Below, one piece after another: positions 48,826 to 53,071 of a DNA stretch of 64,000 bases. The position numbers and the translations under genes are program-made. The notes beneath the pieces are model-generated. The model searched no databases and was not told the DNA's origin. It saw nothing but the letters and a program-made list of their open reading frames with translations. Position 1 is the first letter of the stretch. Each line of letters begins with the position of its first letter. The DNA comes from Fusobacterium sp. JB019 (GTDB taxonomy: Bacteria; Fusobacteriota; Fusobacteriia; Fusobacteriales; Fusobacteriaceae), in NCBI GenBank assembly GCA_030673965.1, contig JAUTCN010000007.1, positions 62,001 to 126,000 on the forward strand. Direction: 5' to 3'.

Positions 48826-49374
48826 ATGAAAATTTCTATAGTAGGAAGACACTTGTTAATAACTGATGCGATTAATGATTATGCTGAAAAAAGAGTAGTA
48901 AAATTGGAAAAATATTTTAATCGTATAGGAGATGTTGTAGTAACTTTATCAGCAGTTAAATTAAAAACAGGACCATCACATACAGCTGAGATGATTGCCA
49001 ATGTTAATGGAAACATATTAAAATCTGTTTCAACAGAAAAAGATTTATATGTGGCTATAGATAAAGCGGCATCAATTTTAGAGGGACAGGTTAGAAAATA
49101 TAAATCTAAGTTGAGAGATGATAATGTGACTTCATCTGCCAGAACATTTAAATTTAATATGGAATCAAATGAGGTATCAACTAATTGGACTAAAAAAATA
49201 GTTAAGGTTGAAATAGAAGCTAAACCTATGAACTTAGAGGAAGCAATACTTCAAATGGAGACAATGGGTAAAGATTTCTATGTTTTCTTTAATGGAGATA
49301 CAGAAGAAATGAATGTAGTTTATAAGAAAAGAAATGGAAACTATGCTCATATAGAACCTAGAATAGAGAAATAA
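48826..49374 (+). CDS. hpf: Long-form ribosome hibernation promoting factor (HPF/YfiA/RaiA)
   Basis: This 182-residue protein binds the 30S decoding region in starvation and joins two ribosomes into 100S dimers. The N-terminal S30AE domain (1-100) begins MKISIVGRHLLITDAINDYAEKR. A linker precedes the C-terminal dimerisation domain (about 125-180) with LEEAILQMETMGKDFYVFFN and VVYKKRNGNYAHIEP. The start ATG at 48826 is nine bases after GGAGGAG; ATG 48822 is out of frame. It is convergent with the transposase-like gene and ends at a strong terminator. Confidence 0.96.
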   Translation: MKISIVGRHLLITDAINDYAEKRVVKLEKYFNRIGDVVVTLSAVKLKTGPSHTAEMIANVNGNILKSVSTEKDLYVAIDKAASILEGQVRKYKSKLRDDNVTSSARTFKFNMESNEVSTNWTKKIVKVEIEAKPMNLEEAILQMETMGKDFYVFFNGDTEEMNVVYKKRNGNYAHIEPRIEK

Positions 49375-49390: not shown

Positions 49391-49425
49391 AAAAATAGTG
49401 CAATTAAGTTGCACTATTTTTTATT
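49391..49425. terminator. Terminator of hpf, also downstream of the transposase-like gene
   Basis: AAAAATAGTGCAA and TTGCACTATTTTT form a 13-base stem with a 5-base loop, T-rich on both strands. Confidence 0.9.
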
Positions 49426-49434
49426 TTTTGCTTT

Positions 49435-50550
49435 TCAGAACTCTACCATACCAATAAATTTTCCATTTGAAAATAAATGTAAAAAATTATAATCTAAAGG
49501 ATTTGATTTAATTTCAATTTCTTTCCCCTCTAAATTTTTTAGAAATTCATCTTTATACAATAAATTTTTAAATCTAATAGCAGATGAATAAATTTTTCTA
49601 GTGGAAGATTGTAAGAAAACATCTAGTATTCTGAAATGAAATTGTTTTTCTAATAACTTAGGTTCAATAATATAATTGTATTTTGTTGAATCTAAATATA
49701 TATAAGAATTTAAAAAAGTGATTAATTCATCAGAAGTGATGTTTTTATTTTTTAATTTAAATTCTTTATATAAATCTTCTTTTAAAAAATTTAAAAATCT
49801 TAACAATTCATCATTATGATAATTATAAGAATATTCAGAAACCTTTATTGTAGTTACATCAAATATTGATTTTGCAACATTTCTAGGAATAGAATTTTTA
49901 GTATCTATTAAAATTTCTTTAGGCATTTTCAGTTTACCATTTAAAGAGGAAACTTTTAAAATACTTTGCCTTATAAATCCAAGTAATGAATAAATATTTG
50001 AAGTTTCAAAAGCAATAGAAAAATTTATTACTTCAAGATTAGAGGCATCAAACATAATAATTAAATTTGGAACTTTTTTAATTTTAGCATCTAAATTTAC
50101 TAGAATATATGTTGGAATCTCTATAACAACATATATTTCATTTTCTTTTTTTATTTTTTTCAAATGAAAATCAGATGATTTTTTGAAAAAATGATCTATG
50201 TTATTGACTATTCTATAGAATGTTGGATAACTTATATTATATTTTTTATTTTTAAAAAAAGAAGTGTATTTGTTGTATAATTTAGAAATATTTCCATCAT
50301 CACTGTTTTTACATAGTTTTTTTATTAAATTAATTTCTTCTTTATCTACAGATTTAAAAGAATTTTTATCTTCTCTTCTTTTTTTGTCTAAGCCTATTAT
50401 TCCATTTTCTTTATAGGCTTTAGTCCATCTTTTTAAAGTGGCGTAGGATATTCCAGATTCAAGTTCTATTTCTCTAAGCTTTTTTTCTTTTCTTAAAAAA
50501 GGCTCAATTATCTTAAATCTTTTTATTTGAATATCATTTTTTTCATCCAT
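49435..50550 (-). CDS. Orphan MuA/TnsB-like transposase relative (probably domesticated)
   Basis: This 371-residue protein has an N-terminal helix-turn-helix (residues 10-55, LREIELESGISYATLKRW) as in TnsB and IS481 transposases, a central RNase-H-like domain (about 138-265) and a C-terminal Mu-type beta barrel (about 315-371, with AIRFKNLLYKDEFLKNLEGKEIEI and NPLDYNFLHLFSNGKFIGM). Candidate DDE positions are E144 (where Asp is expected), D216 (ILIDTKN) and E248 (HNDELLRF), so the first residue seems changed. No TnsC/MuB-type gene, target gene or terminal repeats occur beside it. A host role in regulation is possible. The ATG follows AGGAGG. Confidence 0.7.
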   Translation of the reverse strand: MDEKNDIQIKRFKIIEPFLRKEKKLREIELESGISYATLKRWTKAYKENGIIGLDKKRREDKNSFKSVDKEEINLIKKLCKNSDDGNISKLYNKYTSFFKNKKYNISYPTFYRIVNNIDHFFKKSSDFHLKKIKKENEIYVVIEIPTYILVNLDAKIKKVPNLIIMFDASNLEVINFSIAFETSNIYSLLGFIRQSILKVSSLNGKLKMPKEILIDTKNSIPRNVAKSIFDVTTIKVSEYSYNYHNDELLRFLNFLKEDLYKEFKLKNKNITSDELITFLNSYIYLDSTKYNYIIEPKLLEKQFHFRILDVFLQSSTRKIYSSAIRFKNLLYKDEFLKNLEGKEIEIKSNPLDYNFLHLFSNGKFIGMVEF

Positions 50551-50669
50551 GCCGAAAAACCTCCTTTTCTTTGAAAATATTTGTTAATTTTATATTACTA
50601 TATAAGACGTATAAAATCAAATTAAAAGTGAGATAAAATAAAAAAAGCTCAAAAAAAATGAAAAAAAAC

Positions 50670-50698
50670 TTGACAATTTTAAAATAAAAAGTTATCAT
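50670..50698 (+). promoter_or_regulatory. Promoter of the PTS EIICB gene
   Basis: TTGACA (50670-50675) and TATCAT (50693-50698) are 17 bases apart. I see no copy of the GntR operator in this region. Confidence 0.72.
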
Positions 50699-50770
50699 TT
50701 TCTTACATAAACAAAAAAAACAATACATAAAGTGAAACGAAAAACAAAATATTAAAGGGGGAATGTGAAA

Positions 50771-52249
50771 GTGAAAGTTTTTGCAGAAGTACAAAAAATA
50801 GGTAAAGCTTTAATGACACCAGTTGCTATTTTACCAGCAGCAGGATTATTTTTAGCATTTGGTAACAAATTAGGTATTCCATTAATGGAGCAAGCTGGGG
50901 GAGTAATATTCGCTAACTTACCATTATTATTTGCAGTAGGTGTTGCAATTGGTCTTGTTGGAGGAGACGGAGTTGCAGCTTTAGCATCAGTAGTAGCAAT
51001 ATTAGTAATGAACATGACAATGGGAATTGTTTCAGGGGCACAAGCGGGAATAGATGCAGGTAATCCAGCTTATGCAATGGTAATGGGAATTCCTACATTA
51101 CAAACAGGAGTATTTGGTGGATTAATCGCAGGTATTATCGCAGCAGTTTGTTATAAAAAATTCTATAAAACTGAGTTACCACCATTTTTAGGGTTCTTCG
51201 CAGGAAAAAGATTAGTTCCAATAGTAACAGCAGTTGTTGCTTTCTTAATTGGTCTTGCAATGCCAGCAGTTTGGAGACCAGTTCAAATAGGTCTTGCTAA
51301 ACTTAGTTATTTAGCAAACGGAACTAATACAAACATATCAACTTTTATATTCGGAGTAATAGAAAGATCTTTAATTCCTTTTGGATTACATCATATCTTC
51401 TATGCACCTTTCTGGTTCCAATTTGGAGATTATACAAATCATGCAGGTCAAGTAATAAATGGAGACCAAGCAATTTGGTTTGCAATGCTTAAAGATGGAG
51501 TAACAAACTTCTCATCAGCTTCTTATCAAGGTGCAGGTAAATTTATGACTGGTAAGTTCCCATTCATGATGTTTGGACTTCCAGCAGCAGCATTAGCTAT
51601 GTATCATGAAGCAAAATCTGATAAGAAAAAAGTTGCAGCAGGTATTTTATTCTCAGCAGCTTTAACAGCTTTCTTAACTGGAATAACAGAGCCAATTGAA
51701 TTCGCTTTCTTATTTGTTGCACCAGTATTATACGGATTCCACTGTATATTTGCAGGATTATCATTTATGCTAATGAATATGTTAAAAGTTAGAATAGGAA
51801 TGACATTCTCAGGAGGATTAATTGACTATGTAGTATTTGGTGTATTACCAGGAACTTCAGGATTCCAAACTCGTTGGTACCTTGTAATAGTAGTAGGATT
51901 AATCTTAGCAGTAATTTACTACTTTGGATTTAGATTTGCAATAAGAAAATGGAATCTAATGACTCCAGGAAGAGAAGAAACAACTGAAGAAGCTTCTTTG
52001 GTAGAAGGAAATGAATTAGCAGTATCTGTATTAGAAGCTTTAGGTGGAAAAGAAAACTTAGTTTCTTTAGATGCTTGTATAACAAGATTAAGAGTTGAAG
52101 TTAAAGACACATCTTCAGTAAAAGATTCTGAGCTTAAAAAATTAGGAGCATCAGGAGTTTTAAAAGTAGGATCAAATGGAGTTCAAGCAATATTTGGAGC
52201 AAAAGCTCAATTTATTTGTAATGACTTAAAAGAAATGACAGGAATGTAA
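50771..52249 (+). CDS. PTS EIICB transporter, glucose/N-acetylglucosamine family
   Basis: This 492-residue protein imports and phosphorylates a hexose-type sugar. The membrane EIIC domain (about 1-380, starting [19 protein letters not shown]) holds the conserved [12 protein letters not shown] and [13 protein letters not shown]. The C-terminal EIIB domain has the phosphorylated C436 in LDACITRLR. No EIIA domain is fused and none is in the window, so one must come from elsewhere. GTG 50765 is only two bases from AGGGGGA, so GTG 50771 is the better start. Glucose and N-acetylglucosamine cannot be told apart by eye; the nearby NagR-like regulator favours an amino sugar. Confidence 0.9.
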
Positions 52250-52291: not shown

Positions 52292-52323
52292 AAAAAAGCT
52301 CACATTTAATGTGAGCTTTTTTA
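52292..52323. terminator. Bidirectional terminator between EIICB and the GntR regulator
   Basis: AAAAAAGCTCACAT and ATGTGAGCTTTTTT form a perfect 14-base stem with a 3-base loop. Confidence 0.92.
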
Positions 52324-53037
52324 ATTATTAATAGACATAATGATTGAATAGATGTCTCCTTTATAATAATTTATAGAATATTGTATAGGCGTTTCTTTAG
52401 AAAAAGTTAATCTAGTATTTTTTAGAACAGCTTCATTTAAAGATATTTTTAAGTATTTGCTAAGTTCTTCGTCTGAAAGAATAGCTTTAATTTCTTGAGT
52501 TGCTTTAGAAGGTTTATAACCTTTTTTACTTAGTTCTTTATAAATAGAATGAGTAGATAAATCAATATTAAATAAATTTTCACATAATTTTAAAGGAATA
52601 TATGATTTTTCTAAATTGATTATTTGATTATTAGCTAGTCTAATTCTTTCAGTAAACATGACCTTATCTGTTTTAGAAATTTTTAATTTTTCACATAAAA
52701 ACTTATCAGGATTTATAATTTTTTTTAAAATAACTTTACTAGAAGGTATCATATTTTTATTTTTTATTATTTCAGTAAATCCTAAGAGTCCAGGAAAAAA
52801 TTCAACTTTAGAACTGTTAATAAAAGTTCCTTGTCCTCTTTTTCTAGTTAAAAATCCATCTTCAATTAAAAGGTTAATGGCTTTATTCACAGTAACTCGA
52901 CTAATTTTAAATTTTTCTTTTAAATCCCTTTCTGATGGAATTTTATCTCCTTCTTTATATAATCCTTGTTCAATTTCTTTTCTTATTAAATTAGCTAATT
53001 GATAATACAAAGGGAGTGGATTGTTATGGTCTATCAA
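52321..53037 (-). CDS. GntR-family regulator, HutC/NagR (UTRA) type
   Basis: This 238-residue repressor has an N-terminal winged helix (YYQLANLIRKEIEQG, then SERDLKEKFKISRVTVNKAINLL) and a C-terminal UTRA effector domain (about 90-238) that in NagR/DasR binds GlcNAc-6-phosphate or GlcN-6-phosphate. Its frame is open to GTG 53070, but those bases form a perfect operator. TTG 53037 behind GGAGG with 7-base spacing is the real start. It is convergent with the PTS gene. The operator and family point to amino sugar control. Confidence 0.9.
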   Translation of the reverse strand: MIDHNNPLPLYYQLANLIRKEIEQGLYKEGDKIPSERDLKEKFKISRVTVNKAINLLIEDGFLTRKRGQGTFINSSKVEFFPGLLGFTEIIKNKNMIPSSKVILKKIINPDKFLCEKLKISKTDKVMFTERIRLANNQIINLEKSYIPLKLCENLFNIDLSTHSIYKELSKKGYKPSKATQEIKAILSDEELSKYLKISLNEAVLKNTRLTFSKETPIQYSINYYKGDIYSIIMSINN

Positions 53038-53055
53038 AATTATACCTCCTGCATT

Positions 53056-53071
53056 AGTGGTATATACCACT
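53056..53071. promoter_or_regulatory. Perfect GntR/NagR-type operator in the regulator's own leader
   Basis: AGTGGTATATACCACT is a 16-base perfect palindrome. It matches the DasR/NagR consensus AGTGGTCTAGACCACT except for the central four bases. It lies just downstream of the predicted start (about 53074), so the regulator represses itself. Confidence 0.82.

Follow-up and report, generated by a model that had tools for sequence, protein, structure and literature searches.

The gene that lies divergent to the glucose-type PTS EIICB gene (ptsG) in the window, the 64,000-nucleotide stretch of Fusobacterium sp. JB019 DNA analyzed here, very probably encodes a domesticated, catalytically dead transposase that serves as a PTS transcription factor. 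This assignment rests on the fold of the protein, the loss of its catalytic triad, a strict linkage to PTS genes, a promoter motif that depends on the presence of the gene, and an intragenic copy of that motif under synonymous constraint; judged from the sequence, the factor is most likely autoregulated. The features concerned are listed in Table 1.

Table 1. Features of the regulator gene and of the divergent PTS gene (nucleotide positions refer to the window, residue numbers to the 371-aa protein).
Feature	Position	Strand	Basis or remark
Regulator gene, 371 aa	49435..50550	-	ORF list, Pfam, AF2, structure and profile alignment
HTH1	residues ~10-62
HTH2	residues ~63-125
Degenerate RNase-H/integrase core	residues ~132-290
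Mu-type C-terminal barrel	residues ~305-371
Terminator hairpin between convergent regulator gene and hpf (48826-49374)	49391..49421
Putative intragenic operator copy TTTAAGATAATTGAGCCTTTTTTAA, codons 12-20	50493..50517	-	codons 14-18 free of synonymous change among Fusobacterium-type relatives
RBS AAGGAGG of regulator gene	50560..50566	-	direct sequence reading
Tentative regulator-gene promoter	50592..50620	-	TTGATT 50620-50615, 17-bp spacer, TAATAT 50597-50592
Putative upstream operator AGCTCAAAAAAAATGAAAAAAAAC	50646..50669	+	abuts -35 box of PTS promoter
PTS gene promoter TTGACA-17-TATCAT	50670..50698	+	11/12 consensus matches
Divergent glucose-type PTS EIICB gene (ptsG), proposed target	50765..52249	+	TIGR02002

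The Pfam scan of the 371-aa protein gave matches above the cut-off to HTH_28 (PF13518; residues 10–59, E 7.5e-10) and Mu-transpos_C (PF09299; residues 311–366, E 6.8e-8), and the rve domain was matched neither in this protein nor in any scanned member of the family. Despite the missing rve match, an RNase-H core is predicted by the AF2 model, built from an alignment of 41 homologues (pLDDT 83), whose top Foldseek match was TnsB of ShCAST (E 2.4e-17). Residues 134–371 of the predicted structure aligned with the TnsB core at Z 16.6 and an rmsd of 3.0 over 206 residues, and the model aligned with the MuA core (1bco) at Z 15.2. A divergent member from a genome matching Haliovirga abyssi gave, also as a predicted structure, Z 23.7 to TnsB and 18.2 to MuA, making two family members with matches to both folds. 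By hhalign, the family profile aligned with a Tn552-type transposase over 365 columns (probability 99.8, E 7.8e-29, 21% identity). An earlier note, made from the letters of the DNA, had placed a helix-turn-helix, an RNase-H-like core and a Mu-type barrel in this order; Pfam bears out the first and the last, and the AF2 model supplies the core, the predicted fold being that of RNase-H/TnsB. The normal ribosome site and the terminator common to the gene and hpf, which it had also described, were both found, the latter as a hairpin with a 14-bp stem, and hpf itself is supported by Pfam matches.

The regulator gene is the only Mu-transpos_C gene of the source genome, and nearly all Mu-transpos_C proteins in the phylum set belong to the regulator family. 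One exception is a fragment in G038; the other (L265, G029:C1 near 136399) is a 618-aa protein of the Mu/TnsB type whose gene is immediately followed by that of a 321-aa ATPase, the sole intact-looking Mu-type transposase gene pair in the phylum set, and possibly belongs to a Mu-like prophage. Homologues in the Cetobacterium somerae plasmid and Haliovirga abyssi records are annotated as “helix-turn-helix domain-containing protein”, so that present database annotation conceals the family under a generic HTH name.

The gene was present in 45 of the 98 Fusobacteriota genomes, a count in which absences from incomplete genomes may be assembly gaps. The carriers comprised 10 genera of family f1, presumably Fusobacteriaceae, and a single f2 genome with a copy matching Haliovirga abyssi. 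All 33 genomes of family f4 lacked the gene. A single-sequence search of genome contigs yielded no matches, and the alignment-based search yielded 16 loci, all from Fusobacteriota, with Fusobacterium (including F. mortiferum), Cetobacterium, Propionigenium maris, Ilyobacter, Psychrilyobacter and other Fusobacteriaceae among the named ones.

The gene was divergent from a PTS gene in each of the 52 contexts that were examined, mostly a glucose-type EIICB gene and otherwise EIIA, EI or HPr, with 67 to ~500 bp between the mechanically called starts, while its remaining neighbours varied between genera. The PTS gene of the window is a TIGR02002 glucose equivalog (666 bits against a cut-off of 592). 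Three genomes (G039, G044, and G045) held two or three members each, located at EIICB operons and at EI/HPr operons, and the divergent arrangement also occurred in annotated plasmid records of C. somerae and H. abyssi. Homologues across 11 genera were found divergent beside PTS genes and not in transposons. A Cetobacterium-type genome carried a second PTS-regulator module in which EIICB and regulator are both broken (L082, G005:C4), several loci had EIIA inside the ptsG operon itself, and close EIICB genes without the regulator occurred in G036, G037, G048, G087, G088, and G090. The mirror-tree correlation between regulator and EIICB distances (r 0.64) was not counted as evidence, because common species history yields the same.

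Other genes in these surroundings were also recorded. In the window, a GntR/UTRA regulator gene (52321–53070, minus strand) lies just downstream of the PTS gene and convergent with it; it is not beside ptsG in the sister locus (L032), and could be a second ptsG regulator in the source species. In L252 and L253 (G088 and G090), where ptsG is without the transposase-like regulator, a different HTH regulator gene is located directly upstream of ptsG, and by eye it looks SorC-like, as if the regulator had been replaced. The g8 loci L055, L056, and L058 have a second EIIA-like gene on the far side of the regulator gene. In L038–L041, the other regulator neighbours look like Cas2 and Cas1 genes, together with a gap of ~0.8–1.8 kb that may hold a CRISPR array.

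The intergenic regions were otherwise divergent in sequence, and 49 of 52 contained TGAGCY within a longer A/T-rich motif, the exact motif being missing in L072, L074, and L077. Read on the PTS strand, the motif is RGCTCA-W7-TGA-A(n), its end meeting the −35 box TTGAC, with a start-to-start distance to this box of 24, 23, 25, and 22 bp in 31, 14, 2, and 1 of 48 loci, respectively. It was found at EIIA and HPr/EI promoters, too, where the regulator gene sits there. In contrast, it was found in none of seven ptsG promoters without an adjacent regulator gene, a comparison set drawn from six genomes (genomes or paralogues lacking the regulator; nine genes fetched, seven full-length at the promoter-proximal end), and the difference gave a Fisher value of 3.5e-7 with related genomes counted as independent. 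Two of the seven, L252 and L253, are those with another HTH regulator gene upstream. By these counts the conserved promoter motif, a putative operator, occurs only in the presence of the regulator gene. The tentative promoter of the regulator gene is weak in the window and clearer in relatives (TTGACT-17-TATTAT/TATCAT). The g8 loci L055, L056, and L058 hold three motif copies, ~141–143 and 164 bp apart.

We infer that the regulator binds RGCTCAWWWWWWWTGAAAAAA via both HTH domains and would control ptsG from a site just upstream of its −35 box (approximately −59 to −36). Control as a class II-like activator appears somewhat more likely than repression, given a spacing from the −35 box that hardly varies; the near-consensus ptsG promoter argues against the need for an activator. 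It is quite possible, if not the reading that we prefer, that the regulator is a ptsG repressor, acting as an Mlc-like switch that dephosphorylation of the transporter in the course of glucose uptake would release: the promoter (TTGACA-17-TATCAT) might fire unaided, members of the family also sit on EI/HPr operons, and in E. coli EIICB-Glc sequesters Mlc, the ptsG repressor (PMC3901232), but a motif just outside the −35 box at a near-fixed distance in 48 loci fits contact with RNA polymerase better than a steric block. Considerably less probable is a reading in which some other factor recognises the motif as a general element of ptsG promoters and the protein does other work, such as binding or protecting DNA ends. 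The binding of the motif by the regulator is read from sequence patterns, and the A-tracts of the motif could act as an UP element. Against this reading, the motif is missing from the seven ptsG promoters without the gene, appears at EIIA and HPr/EI promoters that have the gene beside them, and recurs in the coding sequence of the regulator.

Searching the source genome by pattern with the strict motif gave two exact matches, one being the ptsG operator and the other a site that precedes EIIA-Glc by 97 bp (L099 1507–1524; G000:C2:281447–281464) and lies outside the window, in the same orientation. The intragenic copy of the source genome matched the longer pattern at two mismatches and not the strict pattern. 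The EIIA-upstream site is kept in the sister genome G031, and among the EIIA upstream regions of 30 loci it was found only in the source and sister genomes, outside the two ptsG-EIIA operons L214 and L216; the remaining species that were read and have EIIA unlinked lacked it. Unlinked strict-motif matches in other genomes were mostly inside genes and look like chance, and a wider regulon is not claimed.

Within the regulator gene, codons 14–18 read ATA-ATT-GAG-CCT-TTT in all 19 Fusobacterium-type sequences, while GAG accounts for approximately a quarter of the Glu codons in Fusobacterium-type loci and the Ile and Pro codons are split; other conserved columns exhibited ordinary codon turnover (mean excess, 0.02). 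This freeze is confined to Fusobacterium-type genera, and the intragenic copy is partly lost in Cetobacterium. In L043, the two copies, one intergenic and one intragenic, are identical over at least 24 bases, and the two sites are 107–161 bp apart in most loci having both. A helical phase relation between them is no more than suggestive, with p 0.035, or 0.29 in a stricter set. Autorepression, in which the regulator would also bind the intragenic site, is favoured because of this copy, and the regulator would probably link the two sites by looping the DNA, much as the ends of a transposon are joined by its transposase. A programmed −1 frameshift signal (U UUU UUA in phase), in place of an operator, is a highly unlikely reason for the codon freeze: CCT TTT TTA does stand in slippery-heptamer phase, but the constraint reaches upstream into ATA ATT GAG and the identical string occurs in untranslated intergenic DNA, and this explanation was rejected on the −1 tail, which has 1 to 35 residues and is unconserved.

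The catalytic positions were assigned by reference to an intact Tn552-type transposase (WQADHT...YTDHG...KIERFF). In the window protein, Ile143 occupies the position of catalytic Asp1 and Glu144 that of the next His; Asp216 corresponds to Asp2 and Leu250 to the catalytic Glu. The first catalytic residue had been suspected to be Glu144 and not Asp; the second half of this claim stands, with Asp in 0 of 41 homologues, and the first half does not, because Asp1 falls on Ile143. Asp was present in the Asp2 column in 20 of 41 homologues, and Glu in the catalytic Glu column in 7 of 41, or in 28 of 41 when the alternative MAFFT column 248 is taken. Judged from this alignment, the triad of the family is degenerate across the 41 homologues, and the protein is not a working transposase. 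Mean pairwise identity across the family was 65% for HTH1, the best conserved region, 40% for HTH2, 29% for the RNase-H core, and 34% for the barrel, a pattern that at the sequence level is the reverse of what would be expected of an active transposase. The dN/dS was 0.125 against the nearest homologue and 0.05–0.10 in other pairs, values that indicate purifying selection on the regulator gene.

No TnsC/MuB ATPase gene adjoins the regulator gene in the window, and no partner gene of the AAA ATPase type (TnsC/MuB/TniB) is common to the neighbours of homologues across the contexts examined. Likewise, no paired ends flank the gene, the repeats of the window being imperfect A/T-rich inverted pairs scattered through the region. 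The family is mostly present in one copy per genome, sited at PTS genes, in the Fusobacteriota set. The earlier note had reported that partner and terminal repeats are absent and had considered the gene maintained, and both views agree with these data; its proposal of a domesticated DNA-binding protein regulating the divergent PTS gene gains support from the gene-dependent motif beside the PTS −35 box. A still-mobile or recently stranded transposase that lies near PTS genes by chance would account for a fold and domain order as in TnsB/MuA, but it is scarcely credible given the unconserved triad, the lack of an ATPase gene or end repeats, the mostly single copy per genome, the purifying selection, the constant divergent PTS neighbour across genera, and the existence of intact plasmid relatives in which an AAA ATPase gene follows immediately and a recombinase gene is close by.

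We return to the domesticated regulator and its possible history. The ancestral line of Fusobacteriaceae and Haliovirgaceae may have taken in a Tn552/Tn7/Mu-type DDE transposase, which would then have lost its catalytic triad and ATPase partner gene, kept the tandem-HTH DNA-binding half, and become a dedicated transcription factor of glucose-type PTS operons. The regulator may respond to either PTS activity or a sugar phosphate as its signal, sensed via contact with a PTS protein or via the remodelled integrase core. PRD-type histidine phosphorylation of the regulator is unlikely on the alignment, because no histidine is conserved, the best His column containing His in 14 of 41 homologues. More tentatively, the family might represent a lineage of bacterial transcription factors made from a whole dead DDE transposase, in which the core multimerises or senses, the intergenic operator and the one hidden in the reading frame of the gene itself are bridged in the former manner of transposon ends, and a relic transpososome autoregulates and reads PTS flux.

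Among known systems, domains in an identical order along almost the entire length were found in transposases of the Mu transposase C-terminal family encoded by Enterococcus avium and Candidatus Megaera plasmid copies, which we take to be Tn552-type from their gene order. These plasmid relatives (H3 and H4) have an intact DDE triad, an AAA ATPase gene immediately after the transposase gene, and a recombinase gene in the vicinity, whereas the regulator family has none of these; H3, the one scanned, matched Pfam rve, unlike the regulator family, and a basic C-terminal tail is found in the relatives, whereas only longer members of the regulator family keep a tail. TnsB (Tn7-like/CAST) and MuA share the RNase-H core and C-terminal barrel with the regulator, which differs from them in being without a triad, a TnsC/MuB partner, and ends. 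PRD-type (BglG/LevR) PTS regulators have conserved phosphorylatable histidines, and the regulator family has not. Mlc, a ROK-family protein unrelated to transposases, is the nearest functional parallel in view of the proposed specific control of glucose PTS genes; no ROK match was obtained in the Pfam scan.

Domesticated transposases are familiar as transcription factors in eukaryotes. The literature on domesticated transposases as bacterial regulators and on Fusobacterium PTS regulation gave no earlier description, within a coverage that leaves out most subscription journals. A domesticated mobile-element protein is of a known kind, and what appears to be new is a DDE transposase as an apparent bacterial sugar-uptake regulator. 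If true, this would show the passage from mobile element to sugar-uptake regulator in a whole bacterial family, and it offers a concrete candidate operator in an under-studied bacterial group. The clear bacterial parallel found among described cases is nuclease-derived, namely, the TldR proteins, which are nuclease-dead TnpB repressors (PMC13418256). Among dead transposon proteins taken into transcription, TldR comes closest by analogy, the likeness lying in a transposon-encoded dead catalytic site, a tie to new, non-transposon genes, and a role in transcription (PMC13418256). The two differ in that TnpB is an RNA-guided nuclease and TldR works with a guide RNA, whereas the regulator is of the DDE type and has HTH domains of its own together with a fixed DNA motif; its NCBIfam TnpB match reached 19.4 bits against a cut-off of 100, and its fold matches TnsB/MuA over residues 134–371.
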